A DNA stretch of 64,000 nucleotides from Bolinopsis microptera. Taxonomy: Eukaryota > Ctenophora > Tentaculata > Lobata > Bolinopsidae. Both the position numbers and the translations under genes were made by a program. The stretch spans positions 1,888,001 through 1,952,000 of the forward strand of contig NC_087082.1 in the NCBI RefSeq assembly GCF_026151205.1, written 5' to 3'. Below the pieces are notes generated by a model, which had not been told where the DNA came from, made no database searches, and saw only the letters and a program-made list of their open reading frames with translations. Positions 441 to 50,500 of the stretch are shown piece by piece (position 1 is the stretch's first letter; each line of letters begins with the position of its first letter).

Positions 441-3400
441 CTGACTGACAATGTTTCTTCTTTTTCCCCATTTAGAATACAAAGATTAGTACATTTTAGC
501 TTATGATTAATATTATATTTTTACCTATAGTTTACCTAGATGCACATGGTGTATAATAGTATACAGTATGATAAACTATGCACATGGTGTACAGTATACA
601 GCGTGATAAACGCAGTAAATATGCTTTATTTCTCTTACCAAACACTGCATATTTTCCAGGACCCTCTTCGGTCATTGTTCTAAGAGACTCATTCACATCT
701 TCTATATCATACTCAGCATCATCTTCTACATCATCCTCAGCATCATCTTCTACTTTCTTCACTTTAAGAAACATCAAATCTCTGTGATTATTAGATGTGA
801 GGAGAGGGCTCAGCGGAAACGGCCGCTTCATGCGGGGGGGGGGGGGGGAATCATACACTTAGTACCTGCTCCCCCCGGCCCCCGCTCCATGATATTAAAA
901 GTGCCATCACATGATCATAGTTGTGACGAGCGAATAAACCTCGTCTATAACTTGGAAAATATTGTTAATTAAATTGATTGATTAGATGTTAAATCAATAT
1001 TCAAATTACTTGATATAAGCTAGATTAGCTGAAATACTCTTAGTTTGAGTGCCCTTCTGTTCCGAGATTTCTTCCTTGAATTTTGTCAGCTGTGATTGTA
1101 CGTCATCTTCCAATGTTGAAGAAAACTGGCCCTCCGCATCCGTCAATGCTTTAGTATATTCTGAGAAAAAAATTCAGACTTATCACTATCAGCCTCGTCA
1201 GGTATTATTAAATCCAACCTTAAAAAGCACTTGCTATCCTTACAAAATCGAGATGACCCTAATTAAAATACATGGTAACTTAATTATATTACCTAAGGGC
1301 CAATAAATTTAGTTCACAATAAATTTGGCTACCATAATTTTGATTACCATAATTTTAGTCACAAATGTTTTGTCTACAACAATTTTAGTCACATTTTTTC
1401 GACTTTTCGAGACTATTTTCCATTCCATTTTTCCATTTTTTCAGTTTTTCAAATTTAATTAAACTTCACAATTATTATTTAGGGAGAGATAAAGTAAAAT
1501 AAGAAATATTATACCCCATGAAACTGGAGTATATTATACCTTTTCTATAATATAAATAATACTTTCAACACTACTATATAACAAATAATTTTAGGTCCCA
1601 ATGTCAAAGCGATAGAAGAGACTATGACGTGACCGTTTGTATCCTAAGCAACGCATCTACTTCCTGGGCTACAGTATTGACTTCGCCATTTTCTCCTCCC
1701 TCACCGCCATTTTCTCCTCCCTCTTCCTCACATCACTATGGATCTGAATTCTGTTACCAATGTTTTAAACTCGTTTTCATTAAATGAGCTGAAAGCTCTC
1801 AAGGCCAGTGTTGAGAATGTCATGAAACTTAAGAGAAATTCTGTTAAATGCGAGGACTTCTTGGAGTTGCATTCAGATTTTGTTCAGAACAAGAGTGTTC
1901 AACATGGCACGTTGATGTCTGAACTTGAAACACTTATGGCCAAGCAAACTGCTGTGAAAACTGCCACAAAGTGGCTCACTTCGACTGGAGAAGAATATGT
2001 ATGGTCTTCCTCAAATGGACACACCACGACTAAGGAGCCAATCGATATTTTAAATTATCCTGGGATATCAGAGCTTATGCATGATATCAACTCCAAGTTT
2101 GGCTGCAAGCTAAACTCATGCCTAGCAAGCATGTACAAGTCTGGTTCTTGTGCAACTAGGTACCACAACGACGACGAGGTGTCTCTTGACCAGTCGCAAG
2201 GTATTTATGTAGTTTCATTTGGAGCTGAGAGGACCATCGACATAATTCCAGAAAATGGGGATAAGCGATGTAACAGTAAATGCTATATCACCCCAAAGGA
2301 CTGTAGTTTGTATATTATGAAACCGGGGTGTCAGGAATATTGTCTTCACAAGGTTCGTGCAGAGAGCTCAGTTAAGGGGACTCGGTATAGCTTATCTTTT
2401 CGCTGCCAGATACCGAAGACAGATACAAATGTAGTCAAGGAGCAGATTGCCCGCACTACAATTCCTATGCCGCCCACCACCACCTCAACACCAACCCTTT
2501 ACTACCGAAATACTCCAAGAAAACCGAAGAGCAGGAAAAACCACTGTCCTGTTTGGTACGTCAATGACAAAATTCGTACGGACAAATAAGTTGGGATTCC
2601 GGGGAAGGAAAGTAATCAATGTGTCTCAAAGTGGTGCAAAAATTAGAGACATCACTGAAAACATTCATAATTTTCATAAAACTCATGCAGCTGCAGAAGC
2701 TGACGATATTGAAAAAATTATATTGAGTGTTGGTACAAATGACATTAAACATTCTAAGAATGGGGTTCAGTTCCTTAGGAAGTATCTTACTGAATTAATT
2801 GACACCACTAAGCAGTTATTTCCCGCTGCAATTATAATTATCCAATGTTGTCTTCCTATTAAATGTTTATATTCCTACATAGCAAAGAATGTTCTAGATT
2901 TTAATAATCTACTTAAAGACTTATGCCTAAATAATAATTGCGTGTTCTTAGACTGTTTCTCAGTCTTTTTAACTCGAGACTTTAGATCATGTAATGAACT
3001 TCTATACCATGATTGGCTTCATCTCAACATGAGAGGAGTAGGTTTACTGTCCACTTGGCTTAAGTTTGTTGTAAACGAACACAGTTTTGACAGGGTTGTA
3101 AATAATCTTCTGGGAATTTAAATCTTTGATCTTTTCTTCCATTTAATATTTTGATTAAGACGTTGCGCCTAAAATTAAAACTCAAACAAATCTCTGATTT
3201 AATCTTTTTCTCAATTTTATGCCTCCCATTTCAGGTACATTCGGTCACTGTCCATTTTCCAATATGTTAGACAATGAATCGTTTAGACTTAGAATAGGTC
3301 TTTTTGCATGCAAAAGGCCTCGTACACAGTCAAGAAATGCACTTATACATATCAACACGTTTATACCTAACAAAATTTACACATTTAAGTATCCATACAC

Positions 3401-6400
3401 CCCACACATCAACTACAATTATCATAATCATATGTTTCTCTTCTATTCTCTCATCATGACTTACTTTCTCCCAATTCTTCTCTCCACGGTTAGGTCCATG
3501 AACACCGTATTCCCCCTAGATTCTAATATTCATTCCTCTCTACTCCTTGACAGCCCACGTTATCTTATACCATTTCTTGCTTGCTCCCACATCAAACTTT
3601 TCTTTGTAATTATCTCCTCATGGTTTATAAGAAATGTTCTTCTCCCTGGTAAGATGAATAGAGTCAAGTATTCCAGCCGCCTCGGGCGTCTAGTCTCTTT
3701 ATTCATTCTTTGGGTTTTCTCTCTTAACTTTCTTTTGATAACTCTTGTTAATCCTTCTATGCTTAATCCAGGTCCCAACTCCCTATCTGTACTCTACCAA
3801 AATGTCCAAGGTCTCATTCCTTTCAGTAACCTAAGCTCCTCCCATCCCCTTCTTGATGGTAATAAGATTTCCGAACTTCAATCCTTTGCTAACATAGAGC
3901 AGCCTGACATAATTGCCCTAAATGAGACTTGGCTCAAAAAATCTATTTCTAGCAACGAAATCTTTCCTTCTTCTCAATATGAAATCTTCCGCAATGACCG
4001 CACGAGAAAGACTCATCCTCAAGATCCTAATAACCCTAAAAAGTTTAGGGAAAATGGAGGTGGTGTTCTTTTGGCTGTTCGGTCTGATCTCGACGCCACT
4101 ACAACCCGACTACCAGTTAGCCTAGGTGCAGAAATGCTTGCCGTTAAAATTTCTTTTCCTAACAAAGAGAGTATTGTAATCTGTACTTGTTATAGAGTAG
4201 GAACTCTTGGGTTACCTAATCATGATGTCATAGTTAGTTATATTCGCAAGCTAGTTTCCAAAAAGAATCCCCCTAAAATCTATGTTATTGGTGATTTTAA
4301 TCTCCCCCATATAGACTGGCTATCTTCATCCAGTACCGTACCTATTGAGCAATCCTTCATAGATTCTTTCAGTGATCTTTCTCTCTCCCAGTTGATCACA
4401 TCACCCACCCATAAAAGTGGTAATACATTAGACATTCTTCTCAGTAATTATGATAACACAATCGATAACTTGAATGTCTGTGATCCTCATTCCGTGTGCA
4501 AATCTGATCATTTTCCTGTCACTTTTTCAATTAAAAGCTCCTTTTCCCGTAAGAAAACTCCTAAACGTAAAATCTATAATTTTAAGAAAGCAAACTGGGA
4601 CATGATTAATCGTGAATTATGCTCGATTAATTGGCAAGTCCTAGAATGCCTAGATCCTGATTCGTCTTGGAAGTTAGTTAAAGACTGCATTATGAATTTA
4701 GTTGATATACATATTCCTAAAGTAATTATTAAATCAGAGTTCCAACCCCCGTGGTTCGATAGTGAACTTTTTTCTTCATGCCGTAAAAAAGATAGACTCA
4801 GAGCTAAATTTAAAATTTCTGGTTCTATTTCTGATGAGTTAAAGTTTGTTACTAGCCGTAAAGATTTTAAGAGGCTCTCATCAGCCAAAATAAGAGATAA
4901 TCTTTTTAATAGTGATGATCCAGCGCTTATAACTAAGAAGTTTTGGTCACATGTTAAGTATAAATCTAACTCCTGCCGTATTCCTAATTGTGTTAGTTAT
5001 TCTGGACAGCTTCGGTTCAATCCCAAAGATCAAGCTGAACTTTTCAATTCTTTCTTTTATAACCAGTTTTCGGATCCTTCACTTTATGACACTGACATCT
5101 CCTATGTCAATGATGTTGATTTTGATATTGACTTCGATCATCGGGATGTTCGTAAGCTTCTTTCAAATATTAATTCAAATAAAGCCCAGGGACCAGATGG
5201 CATACACGGTAAAATTCTAAAAAATTGTTCCGTAGGTTTAGCTTACCCTCTAACATGCATTTTTCGTGGATCCTACAACAGTGGCTACATTCCACAAGAA
5301 TGGAAACTTGCAAATGTTGTCCCAATATTTAAGAAAGGTAAGAAAAGTGAGGTTGAAAACTATAGACCAATATCCCTTACTTGTTTAGTCATGAAAGTTT
5401 TTGAGCGCATTGTTAAACGTAAACTGCTTTCTTTGACAAGTACCCTTCTTGATCCCAGGCAGCATGGTTTTCTAGAGCACAAGTCATGCACAACCAATAT
5501 GGTTGATTTTTGTGATAGCCTGGCATTGTCTCTTAACGAAAACATTATCAATCATGTTGTGTATTTTGATTTTGCTAAGGCATTTGATTCTGTAAATCAT
5601 GATATCCTTCTTCATAAGCTAAAGACCTTATATAACATTGATGGTACACTTCTCAAATTTCTTACCAATTACCTTCAAGGCCGTTACCAAAGAGTGGTTA
5701 TTGGTAATGAGATGTCATCTACCCTCTCAGTTAATTCTGGTGTCCCCCAGGGCTCTATCCTTGGTCCTTTACTTTTTGTATTGTTTATCAATGATATTCC
5801 TCTTGGCCTTTCGGATAATACTGATATTGTTTTGTATGCCGATGATACAAAAATCTGGCGTAAAATACATTCATCTTCTGATAATACTAATTTACAAATG
5901 GATATAGACTATCTCTCTGACTGGGCACTTAGAAACAAAATGCGATTCCATCCAGCAAAATGTAAAGTGCTTATTGTTTCAGGAAAACCATCTTTATCTC
6001 CTCCATTCGCATATAATCTTGATGGCTCTCCTCTTGTGTATGTAGAGTTAGAAAAAGATCTTGGAGTCGATGTTACTCCTAAGCTCAGTTGGAATAGTCA
6101 GTGCGACAGAATTTATACTAAGGCCTGCCAACAACTTGGTATGGTCAGAAGAGATGGCCATATTGTCATTGATCAGAAACGTCGCCGGGCGCTTTACCTC
6201 TCCCTGGTTCGTAGCCAATTCGAAAATTGTTCCATAATCTGGCGCCCTTGTAATAAATCACTTAGTGATAAATTAGAAAGTCTCCAAAAGAGAGCTATTA
6301 AATGGATTCTGTCTGAAGAGGGCCGCAGTTATCCACCTGAGCAATATGTCAAAAAGTGCAAGCTTGTCGACATTCTCCCTTTGTCTCAAAAGTTTGACTT

Positions 6401-9400
6401 GAATGATCTTATTTTTTTCCACAAAGTTCTGAACAATTTAATTCCTGTATGGCTGCCTCACTATCTCACTTTATATCAGGGCACTTCTCGACTAAGACGT
6501 TGCCACCTCGACAGTCTGTCTATTGTGTCATCAATTTTACCTAAGTTAAGTCAGAATTCACACACCTTATGTACCTCAAATAGCCCACTGGCAAAATCAT
6601 TTTTCTACAGAACTCATATACTGTGGAATGGACTCCCTTTACAGGTAAGACAGATTGTGTCTACAAGTGTTTTCAAAGCTGAGGTCACTAAGCATCTATG
6701 GAAATGTTTATTGGATAGTGAAACAACAGCCTAGCCTAGTCTCTTTGCTCCCCATATTATTATTATTTTTATTTTATTAATTTTTTTATCTACCTTCCTA
6801 TACTTTCAACATCATATCACACTTCACCCGCACACCTCACACATTAATGACCATATCAGACCTGTATCTAATGTATCTGGAATTTGACGTATTGAAATAC
6901 CAATTTTGACTATATATCCACAGTTATTCACCATGGATTTGTTTGTTATTAAATAGTTTTTCATAAATTTTTGGATTTAGATTAATTCGATGTAATGGGT
7001 CCAAGTTACTGCGGACATAGTTCACTATGTGTTTACCGTGTTTGGGTGCCCATCATATTTTACAGATGGGGGCGATATTTTGAACGATTCTATTTTATAT
7101 TCATCTATTGCTGTACTCTGTAAAATTTGAAAAGTATTTAATAAAAAAAACTGAACTAAATCTCGATAACATACCTTTGATGGCATCTGCGATGTCTGTG
7201 TTGGCTACGATGTCGGTATACAGTCCGTCCCACGTGTTTTGGACGAAGGTTGCCCATTCTTGTAGACTCTTACCATCTGTTTCCGGAAAACTCTTGAGTT
7301 TGTTTAAGCTGGTTTTAGCATCTTCAATTTTATCTGCATTTAACTGGGACAGAATTATAGAGATTAGTTACGAAACTACAGAATTATAGAGATTAGCTAC
7401 GAAACTACAGAATTATAGAGATTAGTTACGAAACTACAGAATTATAGAGATTAGCTACGAAACTACAGAATTATAGAGATTAGTTACGAAACTACAGAAT
7501 TATAGAGATTAGCTACGAAACTACAGAATTATAGAGATTAGCTACGAAACTACAGAATTATAGAGATTAGTTACGAAACTACAGAATTATAGAGATTAGC
7601 TACGAAACTACAGAATTATAGAGATTAGCTACGAAACTACAGAATTATAGAGATTAGCTACGAAACTACAGAATTATAGAGATTAGTTACGAAACTACAG
7701 AATTATAGAGATTAGCTACGAAACTACAGAATTTTAGAGATTAGTTACGAAACTACAGAATTATAGAGATTAGCTACGAAACTACAGAAATATAGAGATT
7801 AGTTACGAAACTACAGAATTATAGAGATTAGTTACGAAACTACAGAAATATAGAGATTAGTTACGAAACTACAGAAATATAGAGATTAGTTACGAAACTA
7901 CAGAAATATAGAGATTAGTTACGAAACTACAGAAATATAGAGATTAGTTACGAAACTACAGAATTATAGAGATTAGTTACGGAACTGCAGAAATATAGAG
8001 ATTAGTTACGAAACTACAGAATTATAGAGATTAGCTACGAAACTACAGAATTATAGAGATTAGCTACGAAACTACAGAATTATAGAGATTAGCTACGAAA
8101 CTACAGAAATATAGAGATTAGCTACGAAACTACAGAATTATAGAGATTAGGTACGAAACTACAGAATTATAGAGATTAGTTACGAAACTACAGAATTATA
8201 GAGATTAGTTACGAAACTACAGAAATATAGAGATTAGCTACGAAACTACAGAATTATAGAGATTAGCTACGATACTACAGAATTATAGAGATTAGCTACG
8301 AAACTACAGAAATATAGAGATTAGCTACGAAACTACAGAATTATAGAGATTAGTTACGAAACTACAGAAATATAGAGATTAGCTACGAAACTACAGAATT
8401 ATAGAGATTAGTTACGAAACTACAGAAATATAGAGATTAGTTACGAAACTACAGAATTATAGAGATTAGCTACGAAACTACAGAATTATAGAGATTAGCT
8501 ACGAAACTACAGAAATATAGAGATTAGTTACGAAACTACAGAAATATAGAGATTAGTTACGAAACTACAGAATTATAGAGATTAGTTACGAAACTACAGA
8601 AATATAGAGATTAGTTACGAAACTACAGAAATATAGAGATTAGTTACGAAACTACAGAATTATAGAGATTAGTTACGGAACTGCAGAATTATAGAGATTA
8701 GTTACGAAACTACAGAAATATAGAGATTAGCTACGAAACTACAGAATTATAGAGATTAGTTACGAAACTACAGAATTATAGAGATTAGTTACGAAACTAC
8801 AGAAATATAGAGATTAGCTACGAAACTACAGAAATATAGAGATTAGCTACGAAACTACAGAATTATAGAGATTAGTTACGAAACTACAGAATTATAGAGA
8901 TTAGCTACGAAACTACAGAAATATAGAGATTAGCTACGAAACTACAGAATTATAGAGATTAGCTACGAAACTACAGAAATATAGAGATTAGCTACGAAAC
9001 TACAGAATTATAGAGATTAGTTACGAAACTACAGAAATATAGAGATTAGCTACGAAACTACAGAATTATAGAGATTAGTTACGAAACTACAGAATTATAG
9101 AGATTAGTTACGAAACTACAGAATTATAGAGATTAGTTACGAAACTGCAGAATTATAGAGATTAGTTACGGAACTACAGAATTATAGAGATTAGTTACGA
9201 AACTACAGAATTATAGAGATTAGCTACGAAACTACAGAATTATAGAGATTAGCTACGAAACTACAGAATTATAGAGATTAGCTACGAAACTGCAGAATTA
9301 TAGAGATTAGCTACGAAACTACAGAATTATAGAGATTAGCTACATCGTTTATAAACGGAGAAAGTATTTTAGAAAAAGTCCATAGTTAATTAATTTTAGT

Positions 9401-17157: not shown

Positions 17158-19386
17158 TTAAACTGTTTGGTCTTTGTACACCTGTAACATTTCCATGGCA
17201 TTAGGAAACAGCCTCAAGTCTTGACTCCTTGCTCGCTCAAAGATGGGTCTGTAAGACGGCCAGGAAGCAACCGCCAACCCGTCTGCTGCTGTTTTTGAGT
17301 GCACTCCCGAGTACAGCTTGACACCATCTTCCTCCACAATGCTGGTGATCTCCCCCAGATTCCAAACATCTCCAGTAGAGTCACCGAACGCGTAGACCCC
17401 CTGCTTAAACAAAATGCTAGATCCCATTCCGATCATATCATCCGTTGCCATGACATTAATCGCCACTAGGTTGTAAGGCTGAACTCTGCAGCTTGGGTCA
17501 GGATCCTCCCAATCCACTGTGTATTTCAGGGAGTTCTTGTCAAAGCTGGCCACCCTAGCTGGGAAGAACTGCCAGGCAGCGTAGTGAGCGATAACAGAGT
17601 CCCCTACCATAGGAACCGATGCTCGTAGGGAACTTTTACCTTCGGTACCTTCTTCTCTGGACGAGTCTAGTGCCTCCACTTTAATCCTCTGAATAGTTTC
17701 TGTAAGAGCTGTATCCTTCAATATCTTGCAGATCTGTTCGATGGATTCCGTGTATTTATCGGAATCATCAGCTGTGAAAATGTACGGTTCTTTATCAGTC
17801 GGGAGTACCATGCCCACGCTACTCCTCATCCAGTCGTTTCTATCTCCAGTTAGTCCGCTTCCAACCTCCAGCACTATAGCATCTTTATTTAGAGAACGCA
17901 GTGCAAAGTTAGCCTCCATCTGGCAGTTCTGACTGTTTGTATACTCTTTTGAGACACACATCACTACGGTGGCGGAGTCCTTTAGTCCATCAGCGATCTG
18001 TCCGAACATCCCAGAGTCATCCACACTGTTCAACTGCTCGATGTCCAGCCAAACTCTCTCACCAATCCTTTCTTCGATATCTGCTTTTATTTTCCTAGGA
18101 TCGGAGAACTCATGGCCAACATAGCTCCTCAGTTGTCCTGCTTCGAATGAAGACTTAGAGTTACTCCAACAGTAGGAAAGGAACACTCTAGGAGGAGAAA
18201 CATTGGTGGTGACTGCTGCACTTTTACCACTAAAATCAGAGATAACCAGTTTCTCCAAGTTGCTCTGAAGCTCACTGGCCTTCTCGTCGTATACATCCTC
18301 GCTCCCGAACTGTATGTACAGCTGGCCCGCCAGCAGCATACCTGCTGTAGTGTTTAACCAGTTCGAGCTTCTCCCGATCACAACAGGGATTACAGTCTTA
18401 CCCAGTGTTTTCTTTGCGTACAGCAGCTCAGACATTGCCTGAGGGTTATCAATAAAACTGTCACTGAGACACACTAGGTACACGGAACAGTTTTTTATTT
18501 GTCCGACTATCTGCTGTATGTCCCTGGAAGAGGCTCCTTCACTCGACTCTGCTACATTGAACTTGTCTTTCACCTGTCGCATTATCTTTTGCACAGATGA
18601 GCTGTCTTGGTGCACTTTCGATACGAAAATATCACACGCAGCCAGGTCAATACGACTGTTGGCGCTATCTGGAGATGAATCGACGCAGTTAAACACGTTG
18701 GGAAGAGTTCTCAGTTGGGTCAGGGTAAGACCCTCAAATGTGACTGTGTATCCTGCGTAGTTATCACTAGAGACTTGGGGGTCTGATTTATCCACATGTC
18801 TCCCATTGTACACCGTTTCTCCCTCTTGGTTTTTCGTTATACTAGTAATTCTTCCCATGTGCCAGCGGTCTGAGATCTGACCAAGATCTGCTATTTCCTT
18901 CTTTTTCTCCTCGGTCAGGTTCCTTCCCGAGTTGTCACACACTGTTCCATCGTCATTGTGCCCACAGAAAAAGAGACCCTGCTGAAAGAGGACCTTGGTT
19001 CCTACTCCGATAGTAGCAGGATCCGGCACTTTATCCACACACAGATTCTTGTAACTGGCAGCTTCAGCAGACCAGTCCCCGTCAGTCCACTTGATCATGT
19101 AGGTCAGGTCGTCTGGCAGCCAGTCTTTTATAGTGGCAGTGAACCACCCGTATCCCCACCAGTAGACAAACGCGGAGTCTCCTATTTTGGGAGTGTTATC
19201 TCCACTTATAAGTGCAGAGGCAGAAGGAGCTGATGTTGCACTGTTAGTTAGTATTTGTGTTAGTAAAGGGAATGAGGTGTCAGTCTGGCTGCTGAACTCT
19301 ATGCCAGCCAGACTTCCTTGAAAACCATACCTCTCTCTCAACACGTTCTCCAAATCTTTCACAATTGTTTCTCTCTCACAAGCCAT
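17158..19386 (-). CDS. Tudor-like / TIR / TIR / Tudor-like protein
   Basis: A single uninterrupted 742-aa frame with a good start context (AAAG before ATGG) and no signal peptide or membrane segment, so it is cytosolic or nuclear. Residues 66-118 (GDSAFVYWWGYGWFTATIKD) and 127-210 form a Tudor/chromo-like barrel pair, and the same pattern recurs at 593-705 (VGDSVIAHYAAWQFFPARV, then GSSILFKQGVYAFGD). Between them are two TIR domains: about 248-345 (CSVYLVCLSDSFID, KTVIPVVIG) and about 399-530 (PRVFLSYCW, VWLDIEQLN, TVVMCVSKEY). Both keep the glutamate at the position of the NADase catalytic Glu of SARM1-like TIRs (Glu320 and Glu491, the latter in NCQMEANFAL). TIR domains signal in innate immunity or cleave NAD+. 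Which applies here is unknown. Being intronless, it could be a retrocopy or a lineage-specific gene. Confidence 0.85.
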   Translation of the reverse strand: MACERETIVKDLENVLRERYGFQGSLAGIEFSSQTDTSFPLLTQILTNSATSAPSASALISGDNTPKIGDSAFVYWWGYGWFTATIKDWLPDDLTYMIKWTDGDWSAEAASYKNLCVDKVPDPATIGVGTKVLFQQGLFFCGHNDDGTVCDNSGRNLTEEKKKEIADLGQISDRWHMGRITSITKNQEGETVYNGRHVDKSDPQVSSDNYAGYTVTFEGLTLTQLRTLPNVFNCVDSSPDSANSRIDLAACDIFVSKVHQDSSSVQKIMRQVKDKFNVAESSEGASSRDIQQIVGQIKNCSVYLVCLSDSFIDNPQAMSELLYAKKTLGKTVIPVVIGRSSNWLNTTAGMLLAGQLYIQFGSEDVYDEKASELQSNLEKLVISDFSGKSAAVTTNVSPPRVFLSYCWSNSKSSFEAGQLRSYVGHEFSDPRKIKADIEERIGERVWLDIEQLNSVDDSGMFGQIADGLKDSATVVMCVSKEYTNSQNCQMEANFALRSLNKDAIVLEVGSGLTGDRNDWMRSSVGMVLPTDKEPYIFTADDSDKYTESIEQICKILKDTALTETIQRIKVEALDSSREEGTEGKSSLRASVPMVGDSVIAHYAAWQFFPARVASFDKNSLKYTVDWEDPDPSCRVQPYNLVAINVMATDDMIGMGSSILFKQGVYAFGDSTGDVWNLGEITSIVEEDGVKLYSGVHSKTAADGLAVASWPSYRPIFERARSQDLRLFPNAMEMLQVYKDQTV

Positions 19387-19389
19387 CTT

Positions 19390-20869: not shown

Positions 20870-23800
20870 TTCCTCACTCTGGAGTGGGTCCGAGCAGTAG
20901 ACTCGCGCTACTGACACCCGGGAATGGTAATGCACGGATACAGTTAACGCCGTGTAGCAAAAGCTTCAGAGGATCCTGCCTGCTGCAGGTATGCTGAGTG
21001 GCAGATGCGACAAGCGCACTACTTCCAGCGGACATCAAAATGGCAGTCTGGCCATCAGAGTTATTCAGAACACTCTCCCTTTTAACTAGAAACATGTTGA
21101 TGTCACAGTTTCTAGCCTACTTCTGCTGTAAGAAACTCCTCGCAGCCTGATGACTTACGGTTCTGTGTACTGAGGCACAAAACCCCCTATTGTACTCTCC
21201 CTCACTGTCTGTGTGTGGCTGCAGACCCTCAGTTCTCTTATCAGTCATTTTTAGTTGCCTGAGATCTTGGACTTGTTGCTAGTGGGCTACCAACCCCTAG
21301 CTTTACTCTGGTACTCGCAAAGTTTTTTGCCACGCACCCGTTTATCAACATTACAACGAACTAAACAACTACAGCACTAGGGTTTCAGCCCCTACCTCTC
21401 CTTCTGATAGTCCAGCTCATGATGACGCTGCACCTTTAAACCCTTCGGGGAGAGAAGCAGCTGATGGTATCTGGGTTAAAAGAAGGACCATCAAAAAACC
21501 AAAAATTAACAAAAAAATCTCAGAATCCTTTTACCTTTCTACTTACAATGTAAGATCGCTCACTGAAGAATGGAAGCAATGGGAACTTGTGTGCAAAGCC
21601 AAAACCTTTGACATACCTGTGATTGCTCTTCAAGAGCATCGTATTAAGAAGACTCCTTATATAATGCGTGATGGCTACAAGTTCCTCCTAGCATCTCCTC
21701 CCCCTAAAAGTAGAACACTCCTCGGACTTGGCTTCCTTCTTTCCCCTTGGGCCCAACGCTGCTACATCGACCATAACGTCTTTTCAGACAGGATAATGTC
21801 TGTTTCTTTTACCGGTGAAGTTTGCACACACTTAGTTACTTGTCATTCACCTACTAATGTATCTACAGACCTTGAAGTTGAACAGTTCTATGCAGAGTTA
21901 ACTTCTTGTGTCCGATCTTTTCCACCTCATGACGTAGTAGCTATAGCTGGCGACCTGAATGCTCACCTTGGAAAAGACACCTGCAACACCAACGCGTTTT
22001 ATGAATGTACAAACCGAAACGGACAGCATCTTCTCGATTTTGCCCAAGAAAACGCGTTCACCATCGGTGCGCTAAAGTTTAACAAAAAGCATTCTAAAAA
22101 GGTGACTTGGACAGCACCAAATGGTCAACTGCATCAGAATGACCACATCCTCATTCGCTCAAAATGGCAGAATTCACTTAAAAACTGTGAGTCATACATT
22201 AATCCTTCGGTTCAATCTGACCATCGGATTGTCACAGCGACTATCAAGCTGTCAATAAGGACCAACATCGTCCGACCTAAGGTAAACTGATGACCTCGTC
22301 CAACACAACCAGCATGCATACACCAACATGATAAGTGCTATTAATGACACAGCAGAGAAAGTACTTCCCAAAAGGAAGAAGACTAGTCTAACTGCTCAGA
22401 TTTCATCTAATCCTGAGTACCGGGCTGCTGTCAAGGCACGAGATGCTGCGTTGAAAGATAGTCACAAAAGAAAGACACGAGCTGCTACTAAAGCCCTCCG
22501 TGATGCCACCCTTGAAGTCAGGAAGGTCGAAACCAGCATACAAGAAGCGTTTGTTAATAAGACAATTGATCAAGTAGATCAGCTGTTTATTCCGCAACCC
22601 GCAAACCAACCAGGGTATGCAGCATGGCAGACGAAGTCAAACAGCTCTGGTATTGCTTGGAAGCTTATAAATGACCTTACCAATCGTAAGCCTAAATCTA
22701 TGTCTCCATTACCTGGATACAGAAACAAGGCAGTTTTGAAGTCCAAAAGCCAGAACTCCCAATTGAAACGTCACCATTCTCAGCAGATGAACTATCTACA
22801 GCTCTCAAGCAGACAAAGGACACGTACGGTCATGACGGAATTCCTTCTCTGCTGTACAAGTGTGTTGACTTGGACACTACTTTACTATCTCTGTTCAACA
22901 ACATGCTAGCTACTGGTAAAGCCCCGGAAGAGCTTCTTGTCACTGCCATTCTTCCTATACCCAAAGGAGCTAAAAAGTTTTGTCCTGAAAATAGCAGAGG
23001 CATCTCCATCCTCCCTGTTGCCACGAAAATCTACAACAGGCTGCTTCTAAACCGAATCAGGAGCCACATAGAACCTCGCCTCCGATACAACCAGAATGGT
23101 TTCCGGCCTGGAAGAGGGACTCGTGAACAGATTCTGGCTCTTAGACGTATCATCGAAGAGGTTGTGAACTTCCAGCTTCCTTGTGTCATCTCTTTTATTG
23201 ACTTCTCAAAGGCCTTTGACTGCATCTTCAGATCGCATCTTCCCGACATCCTGGCTTCCTACGGCTTTCCTAAAAAAATCATAAAAGCCATTATGTCACT
23301 CTACATCAACACTAAGGCTAAAATCATGACCCCTGAAGGGATAACCTTAGAATTCCTTACCAACCTCGGAATTCTCCAGGGCGATGTTCTTGCACCTCTC
23401 ATTTTTATCATCGTCCTGGATTTCATACTAAGACTGGCAATAGGCCCACGTGATGGGTTTAAAGTTGGAAGTAACTACATTGCTGATTTGGACTTCGCCG
23501 ATCAGGAAAGGCCTCGCATGGAAAGCTTTGCAGAGTCTAGATGCTTTTTGGAAATCTAATATGTCTAGGAAGATCAAGACTAAGATTTTTCGAACTGCAG
23601 TAGAACCTGTTCTGCTGTATGGTGCAGAAACCTGGACTCTTAAAAAGGCTGATATTAGAGCACTAGACGGTGTTTATACTAGAATGCTACGAAGGGTCTT
23701 TGGTATCTCATGGAAATCACATACACCTAACTCCGTTCTTTACGGAAAGATTCCATCGGTGACAGATACTATAAAGACACGAAGACTTCGTTTTGCAGGA

Positions 23801-24030
23801 CATGTCTACCGTCTACAGGACCAACCTGCTCAACAACTCCTTTTTTGGCAACCATCCTATGGCCAGCGTTATCGAGGACGACCACATAAGACCTTCCCGG
23901 ACGTCCTTCTTGAAGACACTGGACTGGAACCTGACCAGCTGCGTTTACTCATGTGTGATAGGGATAAATGGAGAGAAGCGTTGACACGAAACTCGTTCCA
24001 GATTTCATCTGGATCGACCTAGGCAGGTAG
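20870..24030 (+). mobile_element. RTE-like LINE copy, degenerate, inserted in an older repeat
   Basis: Boundaries come from the unfilled copy of the host repeat at 30140-30575. Inside are an APE-type endonuclease frame, RT pieces in several frames and an RTE-type C-terminal region. The 5' 430 bp are non-coding or untranslated. No long target-site duplication is evident. Confidence 0.7.
21304..24022 (+). pseudogene. RTE-like endonuclease-reverse transcriptase, broken
   Basis: The endonuclease is open from about 21304 to 22290 without an ATG at the domain edge: STYNVRSLTEEW, ALQEHRI (catalytic Glu), AGDLNAHLG, LHQNDHILIRSKW and SDHRIVTATIKLS. The frame then shifts (22328-22750, linker), shifts back for the RT (about 22780-23510: AILPIPKGAK, NSRGISILP, SFIDFSKAFD, GILQGDVLAPLIF, ADLDFAD), and shifts again for the C-terminus (23520-24022: WKALQSLDAFWKSN, LLYGAETWTL, RRLRFAGHVYR). 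The catalytic box reads FADQ rather than FADD and is followed at once by thumb-distal sequence, so an internal deletion of very roughly 80-100 codons removed the region after the active site. At least three frame changes make it inactive. Confidence 0.85.
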
Positions 24031-26103: not shown

Positions 26104-29100
26104 TCATTTTGGATGTGTGGACCCTAGGGTAGACTTAATGTCAAAATTTAGATTAGAGCATTCGAAATCTTTGTTTGTCCAATCAAGATCAGCATGGTTA
26201 TGCTGGTTGACGAGCAGTGATTGCTTCATCCTAGACTTCAGGCAGGCCACACTTAGACAGTAGTCACGTATACCAAGCTTAGGCACAATTACGTTCCAAA
26301 TACGAGTCGTTCTGCTATTGAAGTTGTCAGGGGGGTCTGCTTGGCTTAGTATAAGGGTGGGTTTCCTACTTGAGCAGGTGAAATTTTCATGGAGGGAAAT
26401 CGGAGCACGGAATTTCATGATTTTATAGAGCTCAAGGAAACAATGGTAAGTGTACAGGTTTTGGACGGCAAGTATTCCGTGTTCCTTGAACAAAGGTTTC
26501 GTGTGCTCTTTCAAGAAAAATTTTTTGTTCAGATTTTGGTTGCCAAACGGTCGAGCACGAGCACAGGTCTTAAATTTATCTAGGTATGCCTCCCTGTCGC
26601 CAAACAGTACCCTGAGACAATATTTTTGTGCTTTGAATACAGAACTTATACGAGTTTTGGCTGCCCCACCCCAAACCGTGATACAATAGGAGAGGTGTGA
26701 TTCAAATAGAGTGTAATACAACTGGCGGTGTAAGAAATCTGGGAGGGAGCAGCGTAGGCGGCAGAGAGTTGATGTTGCATGGCTGAGAGAACGCCTAAGT
26801 GATTTTATATGTTCTTCCCAGGTTAGCTTTTCATCGATGACGACTCCCAGAAACTTAGCAGATGCAACTTGTTTTATTGGAAAGTTATCAATGGTTAGAG
26901 TATATTCAGAATTATTGTCAGTCTGGGAGGACGATGCTGGTTTAAAGTGAATGAAACAGCATTTAGACAAGTTGACATGGAGTTTGTTTGCTCGCATGTA
27001 GGAATATAAACTAGCTAAAAGAGAATTACCACGCATATATGCCTCCTTTTTAGATTTCCCAGTCACAAATATATTGGTGTCATCAGCGAAGGTGACAAAT
27101 GATCCCAAACTGGAGCTGTTGGCGATATCATTAGTATATAGGAGAAATAAGAGAGGTCCAAGAATCGAACCCTGAGGGACTCCAAACTGTATTTTCAAGG
27201 CGTCAGATTTCTCACCAACAACTTCAGTATATTGTGATCTATTTGTTAAGTAACTTTTTATAAGATCATTTGCCACCCCACGTATCCCATAGCCCTGTAA
27301 TTTGACAAGTAATGTACCATGATCTATTGTATCAAAAGCTTTGCTAAGGTCTATGAATATGCCTAAGACATGATGCTTAAGTTTTAGAGATTCAGTTATA
27401 AGGTTTACTGAGTGATTAACTGCATGTGAAGTAGAGTGTGACTGCCTGAAGCCAAATTGTGTTTTAGATATTATACCCTGTGAGCTAGCAAACGAATATA
27501 TTCTTGAGTAAATGATCTTTTCAAAGATTTTACCAAATATAGAGAGAGTAGAGATTGGGCGGTAGTTTTCTATCTCTTCAGGGTTTCCCTTCTTAAATAC
27601 AGGAGTTATTCTACCAGTCTTTAGAACGTCGGGGAACGTGCCATTAGACATTAAGATGTTGATGTATCGACTAAGGATCGGTGTAATTACGTGAGATGAT
27701 CTTTTGATTACACTAACAGGAATATCACTTGCTTTTCCATTTTCAAATCCTTTTATTATTTCCGTTATCTCATAAGGTGTACAGTCTTCTAACATAATCG
27801 ATTTTTCATTAGTCTTTCCAAGGAAATCATAGAATGTTTTTATAGGGAGAATTGGTAAACCAGAGGCCTCACTGCTACTAAGTGTTTCATTGAGCTTAGG
27901 GGCAATAGAAACAAAGTAAGAGTTGAATCCATTGGCTATGACTCTACGATTCATGATTCGTTCGTTGTTTATGATAAAGGGAGGCTTAGTTTGCTTCTTT
28001 TTCTTGCCCCTGAGCTCATTGATTATCTGCCACGTTTTTTTGCTGTTTTCTATATTTTTATGGATTTCATTGCAGTAGTACGATCGTTTGGCGACCTTGA
28101 TAATACTTTTAAGCATTCTTCGGTAGTCACTGAAGACTTTATAGAGCAGTACATTACCCTCAGGGTTTCTATTTGTTACAGTGCTTGACCAGTCTCTACA
28201 GAGTTCATGTTTTCTTTCAACTGAGACAATGATTCCATCGGTAATCCACGGGTTGAGTTTGGGAGTCCTTTTGGTAACTTTTGGTACATCAAGCTTACAG
28301 TGTTTATCAAGTGTTTCATTGAAGCAGTCCAAGAACTCATTGAAGTTTACCGAGGGAGTCAAGTCATTCACCTTCACCTCGAGTTCATTAACAAAATTAG
28401 TGAGTTTGGAACTTGAATAATCATAGTAGCGAACATGTTTAAGTTTTTCAGTACTGTTTTCGGTAGGAATTGACGTGAAGGTGAATATAAAGGCATGGTC
28501 ACCAATCCTATCATTCAATACACCGGAGAGAAGTACATGATCTATCTCTGATGTGAGGATATTGTCAATACATGAGTTTTTACAGTTAGGACGGAAGTGG
28601 GTAGCAAGTGATATAGTAGGATACATATTGTTACGAAGTAACGTGTCCTCAAATAGCTGGCTGGAGGTTTGTACATTGAGGAGGTTAGAGTTAAAATCGC
28701 CAAGAATATGGAACTTTTTACCAGCCAACTGCTTAGATATATCCTCAAGAGTTTGACAAAAGGTCTCACTACAGCCATTTGGAGGACGATAAGCAACCCC
28801 ATATGTCAGTTTATCACCCGAGCTAAGAGTAATTTCAACAAATAAGCACTCAATATCTTTTGTACAGTGAGATAGATTTTCGATTACTACAGCATTCAGG
28901 CGATCAGAGACATATAAGGATACTCCTGTTCCTTTTTTCTTATCAGGGAATGGTGCTTGACAAAATGTTGTATAGGAGGGGATTTGGTATAAGCCTTGTT
29001 GGCTTGGATCGATGTTGGTCTCAGCCAATCCAATGACATCAAAATTACACGGGAGGGTCTTATGTTCTATTAAAAAGCTGTCAAAATTACTAGCAAACCC

Positions 29101-29499
29101 ATCTATATTGAAAAACAGAGCGGGCAGATAAGCAGAATTTTTATTTTTCTCAGGAAAAAGTTTGCTGATTGAGTTTGCTAGTTCTTGTTTTGTGTAACGC
29201 TTACAGTCTTCAAGTATTGAAGATAATTTAGCTATGGTGACATCTTCCTGGTTGTTTGTATCATAGAATTTATCTGAATCATCATATCTTTGGCTGCTTG
29301 GAAATGGGCAATACCTATCTTCTATTGTACTACAGCAATCACTGCACATCCATAGACCGTTTTTGCTTGTAAATTTCGCGGATCTGAAGCACTTAGTATG
29401 AACAACTTTGCTGCAATTTTCACATTCTAAGAGTGGCTGGCCAATATTAATGTATTTACTACAGGGGTCGCACACATCTTTAATAAGTTTCATAATCAT
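26104..29499 (-). CDS. LINE ORF2: PHD finger, APE endonuclease and reverse transcriptase
   Basis: An intact 1131-aa ORF. Residues 10-55 form a C4HC3 PHD finger: Cys10, Cys13, Cys26, Cys29, His34, Cys37, Cys52 and Cys55, with Trp50 two residues before Cys52. The endonuclease follows (ALFFNIDG, GLAETN, YGVAYRPPN, HILGDFNSN, DNIL, GDHAFIF), then the RT (KASDIPVS, NYRPISTLS, TQFGFRQSHST, FIDLSKAFDTIDH, GVPQGSILGPLLF, FADD active site) and a C-terminal region ending near DLDWTNKDFE, typical of the CR1/L2-like group. PHD-like fingers at this position are known from several CR1-group LINEs and may bind nucleic acid or histone tails. The ORF starts two codons after the stop of the upstream SGNH ORF and in the same frame. 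Confidence 0.9.
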   Translation of the reverse strand: MIMKLIKDVCDPCSKYINIGQPLLECENCSKVVHTKCFRSAKFTSKNGLWMCSDCCSTIEDRYCPFPSSQRYDDSDKFYDTNNQEDVTIAKLSSILEDCKRYTKQELANSISKLFPEKNKNSAYLPALFFNIDGFASNFDSFLIEHKTLPCNFDVIGLAETNIDPSQQGLYQIPSYTTFCQAPFPDKKKGTGVSLYVSDRLNAVVIENLSHCTKDIECLFVEITLSSGDKLTYGVAYRPPNGCSETFCQTLEDISKQLAGKKFHILGDFNSNLLNVQTSSQLFEDTLLRNNMYPTISLATHFRPNCKNSCIDNILTSEIDHVLLSGVLNDRIGDHAFIFTFTSIPTENSTEKLKHVRYYDYSSSKLTNFVNELEVKVNDLTPSVNFNEFLDCFNETLDKHCKLDVPKVTKRTPKLNPWITDGIIVSVERKHELCRDWSSTVTNRNPEGNVLLYKVFSDYRRMLKSIIKVAKRSYYCNEIHKNIENSKKTWQIINELRGKKKKQTKPPFIINNERIMNRRVIANGFNSYFVSIAPKLNETLSSSEASGLPILPIKTFYDFLGKTNEKSIMLEDCTPYEITEIIKGFENGKASDIPVSVIKRSSHVITPILSRYINILMSNGTFPDVLKTGRITPVFKKGNPEEIENYRPISTLSIFGKIFEKIIYSRIYSFASSQGIISKTQFGFRQSHSTSHAVNHSVNLITESLKLKHHVLGIFIDLSKAFDTIDHGTLLVKLQGYGIRGVANDLIKSYLTNRSQYTEVVGEKSDALKIQFGVPQGSILGPLLFLLYTNDIANSSSLGSFVTFADDTNIFVTGKSKKEAYMRGNSLLASLYSYMRANKLHVNLSKCCFIHFKPASSSQTDNNSEYTLTIDNFPIKQVASAKFLGVVIDEKLTWEEHIKSLRRSLSHATSTLCRLRCSLPDFLHRQLYYTLFESHLSYCITVWGGAAKTRISSVFKAQKYCLRVLFGDREAYLDKFKTCARARPFGNQNLNKKFFLKEHTKPLFKEHGILAVQNLYTYHCFLELYKIMKFRAPISLHENFTCSSRKPTLILSQADPPDNFNSRTTRIWNVIVPKLGIRDYCLSVACLKSRMKQSLLVNQHNHADLDWTNKDFECSNLNFDIKSTLGSTHPK

Positions 29500-29505
29500 G
29501 ATAAA

Positions 29506-30117
29506 CTAAGTGGGATAAACTCCCACTGGTCGGGTGGCCTTCCTTTGTCTTACTCTCTCCTGTCTCTCCCTCACATACACCCACTGTTTCAGACATCTCA
29601 CAAATTTAGCAATACCAAGCTCTCCGAGATGGATTTCATCACCATTTCTCGTGAGTTTCATAGCAAGCAACCCTTTACCGTCTAAAAAGTGGCCAACACC
29701 AAGGTGCCATACAGTCTGGTTAAAGCTAGAGTACAACATTTCATCAACCAAGCTGTTGAATGCCATAATGTTTTTATTCATCTTAGGGAGTCTAGACGGT
29801 AAAACTGCTGTGACAAACAACTTCGCCTTAGGGCACAGTTTCTGGATCTGCTGGATTTTCAGGTGGAGAATGTCTACCAGCTGGTGTATATCACCAGGTG
29901 ACTGCACATTTTCAACTCGTAGATCGTTGGTCCCACAAACTAAGATGACGTTGCTATAACCAATGCAGAGCTTAGGGTCTATTGCACTGACCTTGTTGGC
30001 TTTAACACGTTCACCTGGGAAGGACTGTCCAAGGGTTCCAGTACCGACACCGAACTTGATGGGCTTGGTGTTAGAGTCGCCCATGATGATGCAGCTCCGG
30101 CTAAACTGTTTGCTCAC
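29506..30117 (-). CDS. LINE ORF1: SGNH/GDSL esterase, probably 5'-truncated
   Basis: A 203-aa open frame with a complete SGNH set: Gly13-Asp-Ser15 (IIMGDSN), Gly62-Thr-Asn64-Asp65 (LVCGTNDL), and Asp160/His163 (GDEIHLG). Its C-terminal 25 residues are very basic (RERQERVRQRKATR), suggesting RNA binding. No ATG exists before the GDS block except the Met directly preceding it, and a stop lies shortly upstream where repeat sequence begins, so the N-terminal part of ORF1 was probably lost at insertion. It ends in TAG, two codons before the ATG of ORF2. Confidence 0.8.
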   Translation of the reverse strand: MSKQFSRSCIIMGDSNTKPIKFGVGTGTLGQSFPGERVKANKVSAIDPKLCIGYSNVILVCGTNDLRVENVQSPGDIHQLVDILHLKIQQIQKLCPKAKLFVTAVLPSRLPKMNKNIMAFNSLVDEMLYSSFNQTVWHLGVGHFLDGKGLLAMKLTRNGDEIHLGELGIAKFVRCLKQWVYVRERQERVRQRKATRPVGVYPT

Positions 30118-30139
30118 AGTTCTCAGTAAAATAGTTGAC

Positions 30140-47554: not shown

Positions 47555-50500
47555 CTGTGAAATTATTATCATCAGTTTCGTGGTATTTAAGTTATCAATG
47601 TCAGGTCACTGTTATCGAAGTTTAAATGTAGACTCCTTGGCCGTCACTAAGTCTAACATGTCCCTAATATGACAAGTATGTGGGGTAGTTTTTCATAATT
47701 TGAAATATAATACGGTTTTGAGCGGTTTTGGCGAAAATTTGTACCACGTACACCAGACTTCTCGTTACAGTATGGGTCTGTATGGGGTCGTTCACATATT
47801 ATGTTATCACTTTTTGGCCCATTTTTAACCCTCCGTAATCAGTTCTAGTTTTACTGGGCCGCGCTCAGCCTGTCATTCCGCCGAATCTCTATGTTAATGA
47901 ACATGATAGCCTGAGGTCCCCAGGTAAGTTTAGTTCTACACATAGCTAGTGTGTCAAAATTACACTAGCGTAATTATTTGGAAAGCCCCCCCCCCCCCCC
48001 CCCTGGCTGATTACGTATTATGTGAACGACCCCTATCACTATCAGTGCATTTTTGGTAGGGATTTCTAGAAAAGGCTATGTACAATCAAAAGTTAGGAAA
48101 GTGAATTTCATGGAAGATGCCGGTCATTGTACCCTACTTTCCGGGGTTCGGCCCCTTTTACTCTGAAGTGGGCTACTCAGCATCCCATTTTCACGAAATT
48201 ATCAGATATCTTTCCCTCTAAAATTACATTTAGACACGTGAAATGTAAAATGGGCATATTTGAGATTAAACTCGAACCCAGATTACGAAAATAAATTAGA
48301 CAATCTCGTAACGTAACAGTGTTAAAATTCATCGTATATTACAACAGTCGAATTCAATTTTTACATCAAAGTCAAGTTAATCTTTTGGTACTGCACTAAT
48401 CCCAGCTTAACCATACCGAAATATTAAGAAAATTTGAAACAAAATGTTTGTTTCTGAAAATTAATTGAATGTCAAAACATAGAAAATCTAGGGTGAAATA
48501 AAATATTTAAGGAATAGCCAGAATAAAATATTGGCTATAATCTAAAAATGATATTTTTAGCGGAATTTACAAAAAAATTTCAAATATAGCATCACATTAT
48601 TTTAGGAAATTGACATATAAGATCTTAGCACATATATTTCTAGATTCTGCAAACTCTATTCAATTGTGCGATTCTATAGGGCCAGCCTGAGACAAAACGG
48701 AGTACAAAATATTCTTTAAAGTAATAAATATAATTAAAACCGGGAGTGGTTCTGAAGGGGCAGGCGCGAAACAACATCACATCGAATCATTACCAAATAT
48801 TAAAACACTCTAAAAACTCTAATATAATTTGGAGGGTGGTTTAGATTTGGTACAACGTCCCCCGCAGAATGAGAGCAGAATTAGGAGACATATAGAGAAG
48901 CCTATGTAAGCTAACAACTCGTGTTTATATTTGCTGGATTCTATTGAACGGTAGATGTCGTCCACCATCTCCAACGCAGAATCGTACCTGTGAAATTATT
49001 ATCATCAGTTTCGTGGTATTTAAGTTATCAATGTCAGGTCGTAGGTATCACAAGAAATCAGAAGACCTTCGAAACAGAAAATACGTCTCTTACTAAGGAG
49101 AGTATTTTTTGTATCAGAAGACTCGTTTGTTTTTTCGGAGAGGTAAGAACAGTAAATTGAAAGGTACATTGTACATTTTACATTGTACATTGTACATTGT
49201 AAAGGTATATTGTACATTGTAAAGGTACATTGTACACTGTACATTGTAAAGGTAACTCACTGTTTAGCCCTCTCGTACGCATTGGACCACATCTGTACCC
49301 TTGATTTGAGCATGCTCCCGCAGGTTGGAGTCAGAGCATTAGGGTCTCTAGCCTGATTTGACTGAAATATAGAGTGTTGCAAAATCACGTACATCTAAAG
49401 CTTTTAATAAGCTTTTAGGCTCTATCAAGAAATCTTAAATCCGGGAATATCAAGAGCCTTTAATGCTCTCATTCATTTCAGAGAAATGTTTGACACAGCT
49501 GACCCACAAGATTCACTAGTTTGAGGTAGCGTGTGGAGGTTCAATAACGAATTTGAAGAGGTGGATAAAATATCATTTCCACGAATCCCTCTGGCCTCTT
49601 ATGATAAGGAGGTAGCTGTCAATAATTTAATGGAAATGGTGTTATATCTTGATGTCGCTGACAAAGCAACATTTACTGATATCGCAAGTCTTAAAGGTGC
49701 TTAGAGTGACATCATTTCTAATCTGTTTTTATGAGTACATCTTTTACAATTATAGCAACCATTAAAGAAATAGTAGCCCATGCATTTCAGGGATCACATT
49801 GTTCGGTATTGCGGGTCTAGAGAAAGTAATTCTTGCCGCTCGGACTGGTTGCAGGTTTATGTTTGTAACATACATATAATATCATGTGATATGACAGTCC
49901 TACACTACTATACTGAAGACTCACCTACACTACACGAGTAGAATAATAATTACCACAAGTTCAATCTAAAGTACATGATATTAACCTGAAGGCACTCTAT
50001 AATCTAAAGTACATGATATTAACCTGAAGGCACTCTATAATCTAAAATACATGATATTAACCTGAAGGCACTCTATAATCTAAAATACATGATATTAACC
50101 TGGAGGCACTCTATAATCTAAAATACATGATATTAACCTGAAGGCACTCTATAATCTAAAGTACATGATATTAACCTGAAGGCACTCTATAATCTAAAGT
50201 ACATGATACTAACCTGAAGGCACTCTATAATCTAAAGTACATGATATTAACCTGAAGGCACTCTATAATCTAAAGTACATGATATTAACCTGAAGGAACT
50301 CTATAATCTAAAGTACATGATATTAACCTGAAGGCACTCTATAATCTAAAGTACATGATATTAACCTGAAGGCACTCTATAATCTAAAGTACATGATATT
50401 AACCTGAAGGCACTCTATAATCTAAAGTACATGATATTAACCTGAAGGCACTCTATAATTTAAAATACATGATATTAACCTGAAGGCACTCTATAATCTA

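Follow-up and report, generated by a model that had tools for sequence, protein, structure and literature searches.

An AlkB dioxygenase fused to the SGNH esterase in the ORF1 protein of several LINE families of Bolinopsis microptera, with a counterpart in Helitrons of the same genome

We find that an ORF1 protein joining an AlkB dioxygenase to an SGNH esterase is common to several LINE families in the genome of Bolinopsis microptera and has a parallel in the Helitrons found there, which makes the phenomenon larger than first described. The element under study lies in a stretch of 64,000 nucleotides (the window), for which a preliminary description had claimed a complete AlkB ORF ahead of the SGNH esterase of a LINE; the domains, the catalytic residues and the other copies of the element all confirm this claim. 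The element belongs to an APE-type LINE family with a fusion ORF1 protein, of which it is a young copy (Table 1). It has the composition of an esterase-type LINE, with an SGNH domain in ORF1 (PF13472) and an APE endonuclease and a reverse transcriptase in ORF2, and its ORF1 protein runs from a short helical N-terminus through the AlkB dioxygenase and a low-confidence linker to the SGNH esterase.

Table 1. Features of the AlkB-bearing LINE and other observations in the window (window coordinates).
Feature	Position	Strand	Remarks
Whole LINE copy	1557..7150	+	about 5.6 kb; limits from comparison with other copies
5' untranslated region	1557..1737	+	common to the copies compared
First part of ORF1, containing AlkB	1738..2589	+	open here; ATG at 1738; 283 aa
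AlkB dioxygenase domain	1948..2415	+	residues 71-226 (H143, D145, H204, R216, R222)
Second part of ORF1, SGNH esterase	2435..3121	+	next frame; PF13472 1.8e-13; domain about 2537-3118
ORF2	3198..6734	+	1178 codons stop to stop
APE-type endonuclease domain in ORF2	3840..4520	+	PF03372 and PF14529
Reverse transcriptase domain in ORF2	5340..5972	+	PF00078 1.3e-28
3' untranslated region	6735..7150	+	A-run at end
Tandem array	7349..9343		29-base unit, about 69 copies; 200 bases beyond the LINE 3' end
743-aa frame	17158..19389	-	by eye, resembles a pair of TIR domains flanked by repeated modules
Broken frames	21301..24022	+	resemble endonuclease and reverse transcriptase of a third LINE kind (by eye)
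Other LINE	26104..30138	-	esterase-like ORF (weak PF00657), then PHD-like finger and reverse transcriptase; without AlkB
Tandem array	49963..51335		38-base unit, about 36 copies

The limits of the element were set by its relatives in the genome: identity with 27 other copies ends at a median of 181 nt upstream of the ATG, and most of 39 other matches end at window positions 7150-7163, at or near the A-run. Positions 6735-7100 have at least 40 matches at 98-100% identity in the genome (the best 40 of 410 candidates), and no second copy of the LINE was found within the 64 kb. Target-site duplications were not seen by eye at 1557 and 7150. In three copies (L006, L008 and L021) the 5' end diverges from that of the other copies upstream of a common GGTCCC, about 142 nt before the ATG; beyond this point the sequence is similar but diverged in L006 and unrelated in L008 and L021, and these represent either two types of 5' end or truncations.

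In the window copy, the frame of ORF1 changes near 2.54 kb and the last residues of the first part lie out of frame after about 2538. These split frames are the sole support for supposing that an AlkB gene was inserted by chance upstream of one LINE copy, or that the arrangement is an annotation artefact, a reading to which we give practically no credence: AlkB and SGNH are fused in frame in 26 of the 29 best other genome copies, AlkB stands in front of 37 of the 39 full-length esterases of the family (53 window-family SGNH rows entered, some family fragments being left out), six more LINE families carry AlkB, and relatives occur in other contigs. The first two of these counts rule out a chance upstream insertion. 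A strict test, namely a 460-aa ORF from ATG to stop, is passed by 24 of the 29 copies; L028 also has a 460-aa ORF, L014 has an open frame of 481 codons that continues through the esterase, and the remaining three are interrupted (L005, L024) or cut by the contig end (L026). The ORF that had been described as open in one copy is therefore open in many. The 23 other copies passing the strict test are 97.1-99.9% identical to L002, which indicates that the family was recently active. A search among 5.8 billion proteins gave 31 relatives; a precomputed esterase domain is present in 22, and most of these 22 are of 445-496 aa.

The preliminary description had pointed to copies of the same LINE lacking the AlkB ORF as a sign of chance insertion; such copies were looked for, and those without AlkB resemble 5' truncations. 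More specifically, the two exceptions among the full-length esterases start at esterase residue 1 or 4, which is what 5' truncation would leave. Similarly, AlkB lies upstream in 40 of the 67 family endonuclease matches entered (142 of all 145 endonuclease matches were entered, three fragments being left out). The other 27 comprise 16 that also lack the esterase and 11 that retain a piece of it, starting at residue 1 to 151 and reaching residue 194 in 10 of the 11 cases, and we read this nested pattern as 5' truncation.

The fusion extends to more distant LINEs. Twenty more divergent AlkB loci were taken, and in 15 of them AlkB is followed by SGNH in one frame and then by endonuclease and reverse transcriptase, whole or in pieces. 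These 15 loci make up six further LINE families (L031; L032/L042/L046; L037; L038/L039/L041/L050; L040; L043/L044/L045/L047/L048), whose ORF2 proteins are 47-53% identical to that of the window; L049 has AlkB and SGNH pieces only, and four of the 20 loci are Helitron-like. All seven AlkB-LINE ORF2s checked (window, L031, L032, L037, L038, L040 and L043) share a hydrophobic stretch just before the endonuclease that ends in NPGP (window 3765-3776). 2A motifs usually come with acidic residues; this stretch is 2A-like, without the usual acidic residues, and it was not found in the ORF2 at 26104-29505.

A search of the 264.65-Mb genome with PF13532 gave at least 151 matches (the best 150 of 587 candidates, 150 listed). 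These 150 places overlap at 4 with the 96 places of the protein search (96 of 137 matches entered, most of those left out being second pieces or degenerate places with several stops), and both lists together hold at least 241 distinct places, host genes included. Frames of 551, 593, 644-646, 707 and 777 aa and others are represented among the 150 places listed, at least 23 of which have an SGNH match 160 or 172 nt downstream of AlkB (27 of 148 SGNH matches entered, belonging to the 611- and 676-aa families, plus a few more) and none an SGNH match upstream. Esterase frames of 521-523 aa (then endonuclease) and of 630 aa, e.g., C9:5173360-5175431 and C10:12156130, have no AlkB among the matches listed; they may be without AlkB or have one too divergent to detect. 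Esterase LINEs without AlkB do exist, as the LINE at 26104-30138 demonstrates, so AlkB is not required by every esterase LINE; the reverse transcriptase of that element is 29.7% identical to that of the AlkB LINE.

In the loci L033-L036, the domain order is opposite to that of the LINEs: SGNH comes first and AlkB follows (PF13532 1.3e-17 to 1.7e-21), the SGNH of L034 and L036 being detected by a custom profile only. After AlkB, L034 and L035 carry DUF6570 and Helitron_like_N (PF14214 1.8e-23 and 2.3e-22, respectively) and L034 also a PIF1 helicase (PF05970 1.3e-25); the Rep of L033 is listed with the same 3226-aa frame as AlkB, and no Rep or helicase was seen in L036. Taken as a group, L033-L036 show the Rep and PIF1-type helicase of Helitrons. 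For at least eight AlkB places, a Helitron_like_N match is found 3.2-3.9 kb further downstream. Conversely, AlkB lies within 6 kb upstream of 9 of the 41 Helitron_like_N matches listed, so that most Helitrons listed are without AlkB. Fish Helitrons with texim likewise have an SGNH hydrolase in or beside the Helitron, related to CR1 esterases; texim has introns and adjoins the Helitron gene (PMC4021074, in excerpt), whereas here AlkB and Rep fall in one same frame length (2225-3388 aa) at six of the eight AlkB-Helitron places. The word 'oxygenase' is absent from the available part of PMC4021074. Of the proteins from a further search, P0057 and P0059 both have AlkB and SGNH Pfam domains. In the Mnemiopsis leidyi protein P0058, Pfam detects AlkB, and the start looks SGNH-like by eye; the protein opens with the stretch LLLAGDVESNPGP, which resembles a classical 2A peptide (by eye).

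The history of these domains was examined using trees. The AlkB tree (49 rows; near-identical rows removed; P0041, P0050 and P0055 dropped for their long branches; no named ALKBH reference) contains a clade TE1 with the window family and most LINEs (30 rows, support 99/99), a clade TE2 with LINE L043, the Helitrons, P0034 and P0036-P0038 (7 rows, 97/98), and a cellular AlkB clade (7 rows, 92/98) that includes the host genes L051 and L052, named ALKBH2-like and ALKBH3-like by resemblance. None of the transposon AlkBs groups with the cellular rows, as an orthologue of ALKBH2 or ALKBH3 would. As they fall into two clades, both with support and both separate from the host-type AlkBs, this tree rules out a recent capture of the host ALKBH2 or ALKBH3. 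In the ORF2 tree (8 rows, quick method), L043 pairs with L037, a bearer of TE1 AlkB (SH-aLRT 97); the type of AlkB is thus in conflict with the history of the reverse transcriptase, and on these sequence comparisons an exchange of AlkB between elements is likely. The esterases of the Helitrons cluster by themselves on a long branch, away from those of the LINEs, a separation that is likely rather than proven because long branches meet there (program warning). Viral contigs gave relatives in 0 of 28 stretches in one search and in 2 of 219 in another, the two being phage-like contigs whose AlkB lies inside a large protein; the phage-like contig L053 (21-8387) has an AlkB domain inside a 2788-aa protein. 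A phage search gave nothing close (10 records, 21.8-33.3% identity) and scans of prokaryote genomes gave no relative (0 of 11 stretches, then 0 of 23). A viral origin of the transposon AlkB finds no support in these searches.

The domain itself has the HxD...H metal site and the RxxxxxR of the AlkB family. The catalytic residues said earlier to be all kept (HxD at 143/145, His204 and Arg216/Arg222) are conserved in the alignment, with H143 in 23 of 24 rows (P0032 left out) and D145, H204, R216 and R222 in 24 of 24, down to rows as low as 29% identity. The position of E. coli AlkB Asn120, which we take to be a 2OG contact, is Ser in 21 of the 24 rows, and Tyr133 is lost in 5. In the esterase (21 rows), G299, N334 and D335 are found in every row, S275 and H428 in 20 and D425 in 18. 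This pattern bears on the idea that AlkB is mainly a nucleic-acid binding module, replacing the RRM of other ORF1 proteins, with its chemistry minor. Such a role would fit with the finding that the ORF1 proteins scanned have no RRM or zinc-knuckle match, and with the ZfL2-1 esterase itself being without oligo(A) RNA binding (PMC3905857, in excerpt). However, conservation is highest at the columns of the metal and 2OG residues, and HxD, H and RxxxxxR are invariant across the TE1, TE2 and Helitron rows, which makes the idea improbable.

The Pfam score of the window-family AlkB is below the cut-off; its fold is that of AlkB, a double-stranded beta-helix with a nucleotide-recognition lid. ALKBH2 and ALKBH3 are nucleic-acid repair demethylases of animals. 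They are the nearest relatives by both fold and sequence and the only AlkB proteins among the sequence matches, yet the transposon AlkBs lie outside the clade of the host ALKBH2-like and ALKBH3-like genes. The matched ALKBH3 and ALKBH2 structures were solved with ssDNA and dsDNA bearing 3mC or 1mA. With these two as the nearest structures, the label 'virus-type' of the preliminary description finds no support. ALKBH5 chains are also among the fold matches, and the AlkB of an orchid Ty3/gypsy element is reported as an m6A RNA demethylase (PMC9289625, in excerpt); both would suit a function in which AlkB erases a host regulatory mark (RNA m6A or DNA 6mA) by which the element is recognised or silenced, instead of removing blocks to copying. 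We consider such mark erasing a serious but unlikely alternative, given that ALKBH3 and ALKBH2 outrank ALKBH5 by fold and alone match by sequence.

The preliminary description had also held that AlkB was under selection until recently. Between sister families this stands: in the contrast of L032/L042 with L038/L039/L041/L050, the only between-family contrast with unsaturated synonymous sites and one whose pairs are not independent, the dN/dS of AlkB is 0.16-0.21, or 0.29-0.34 when the decayed L046 is included. The values near 1 that had been named as contrary evidence are thus not seen at this one informative distance, between two sister families. In the same contrast SGNH gives 0.09-0.12, AlkB being the less constrained. 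The young window family gives a less clear picture: AlkB dN/dS is 0.11 for B x B, 0.52 for A x A and 1.0 for A x B (L013 and L015 belong to neither group), the last with a mean of 1.6 synonymous and 5.9 nonsynonymous differences. Four nonsynonymous and no synonymous AlkB changes are fixed between A and B, and distinct changes in the family give 0.37 for AlkB, 0.24 for SGNH and 1.17 for the linker. Other small AlkB contrasts range from 0.10 to 0.76 (two at 0.76), and L032 or L042 versus L046 gives 1.6 (two contrasts). Counts are few within young families, and the window family does not settle selection by itself. In our reading, AlkB is under purifying selection overall, weaker than that on SGNH, and the recent excess of AlkB amino-acid changes may reflect drift, small counts or positive selection.

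Esterase-type ORF1 LINEs of the CR1/L2 lineages were reportedly treated by Kapitonov and Jurka in 2003. These LINEs with a type IV ORF1, e.g., ZfL2-1, likewise have SGNH in ORF1 and APE and reverse transcriptase in ORF2 (PMC3905857, PMC4120745, both in excerpt); here, in contrast, the esterase shares its protein with an AlkB dioxygenase located N-terminal to it, and the available part of PMC4120745 contains neither 'dioxygenase' nor '2OG'. The nearest published case, going by the excerpt of PMC9289625, is the orchid (Phalaenopsis) Ty3/gypsy demethylase, likewise a retrotransposon with an acquired AlkB and intact cofactor residues. That element is a plant LTR element with an AlkB/ALKBH5-like protein in its own ORF, nearest to RNA (m6A) demethylases, whereas here a LINE has AlkB fused to the esterase and nearest to ALKBH3/ALKBH2. 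Plant RNA viruses, mainly Flexiviridae, likewise carry AlkB in a mobile or infectious element with HxD, H and RxxxxxR kept, within the viral replicase polyprotein (PMC544882, in excerpt); our tree was built without plant-virus AlkB. A literature search found no LINE or Helitron with AlkB among the papers listed, subscription papers and Repbase being outside its scope and an entry there possible. The earlier statement that no established CR1/L2-type LINE family is known to be defined by an AlkB agrees with what we met in print.

We think it somewhat probable that the AlkB-esterase ORF1 protein accompanies the nucleic acid of its own element, where an ALKBH2/3-like AlkB would demethylate single-stranded intermediates and the esterase would provide contact with membranes or lipids. 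AlkB proteins act on base methylation by repairing or erasing it; by analogy with ALKBH2 and ALKBH3, the AlkB of a protein that stays with its own nucleic acid would strip methyl groups, most likely those of N1-methyladenine and N3-methylcytosine and possibly those of m6A or 6mA, from the RNA template in LINEs and from single-stranded DNA in Helitrons. If left in place, such marks would stall copying or be recognised by the host. RNA demethylation and RNA binding in vitro have been described for the orchid AlkB (PMC9289625, in excerpt). The part assigned to the esterase, by analogy, is the one proposed for other esterase LINEs, and the esterase of zebrafish ZfL2-1 binds phospholipids (PMC3905857, in excerpt). 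Alternatively, AlkB could render the cell permissive by acting on host molecules such as tRNA, mRNA or chromatin, a possibility that the authors of the orchid study weighed for their element (PMC9289625, in excerpt); here the fusion within ORF1 would favour action in the element's own particle, and we regard a host target as very improbable.

A broader possibility, which we put forward tentatively and would not call probable, is that, in this lineage, mobile elements constantly face methylation of nucleic acids as an obstacle. LINEs and Helitrons, two unrelated classes, would each have joined an ALKBH2/3-like demethylase to a lipid-type SGNH esterase, in opposite orders, with esterases seemingly of different ancestry and with AlkB exchanged between the classes, and the pair may be a counter-defence or template-repair module for single-stranded RNA or DNA intermediates. 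The puzzling esterase of LINEs here gains a partner that acts on nucleic acid, and the near-identity of copies with open frames makes the role of AlkB testable. That AlkB became fixed in ORF1 of an animal LINE both abundant and recently active, and a second time in Helitrons, suggests that transposons are held in check by methylation of their single-stranded intermediates and have evolved a remedy.
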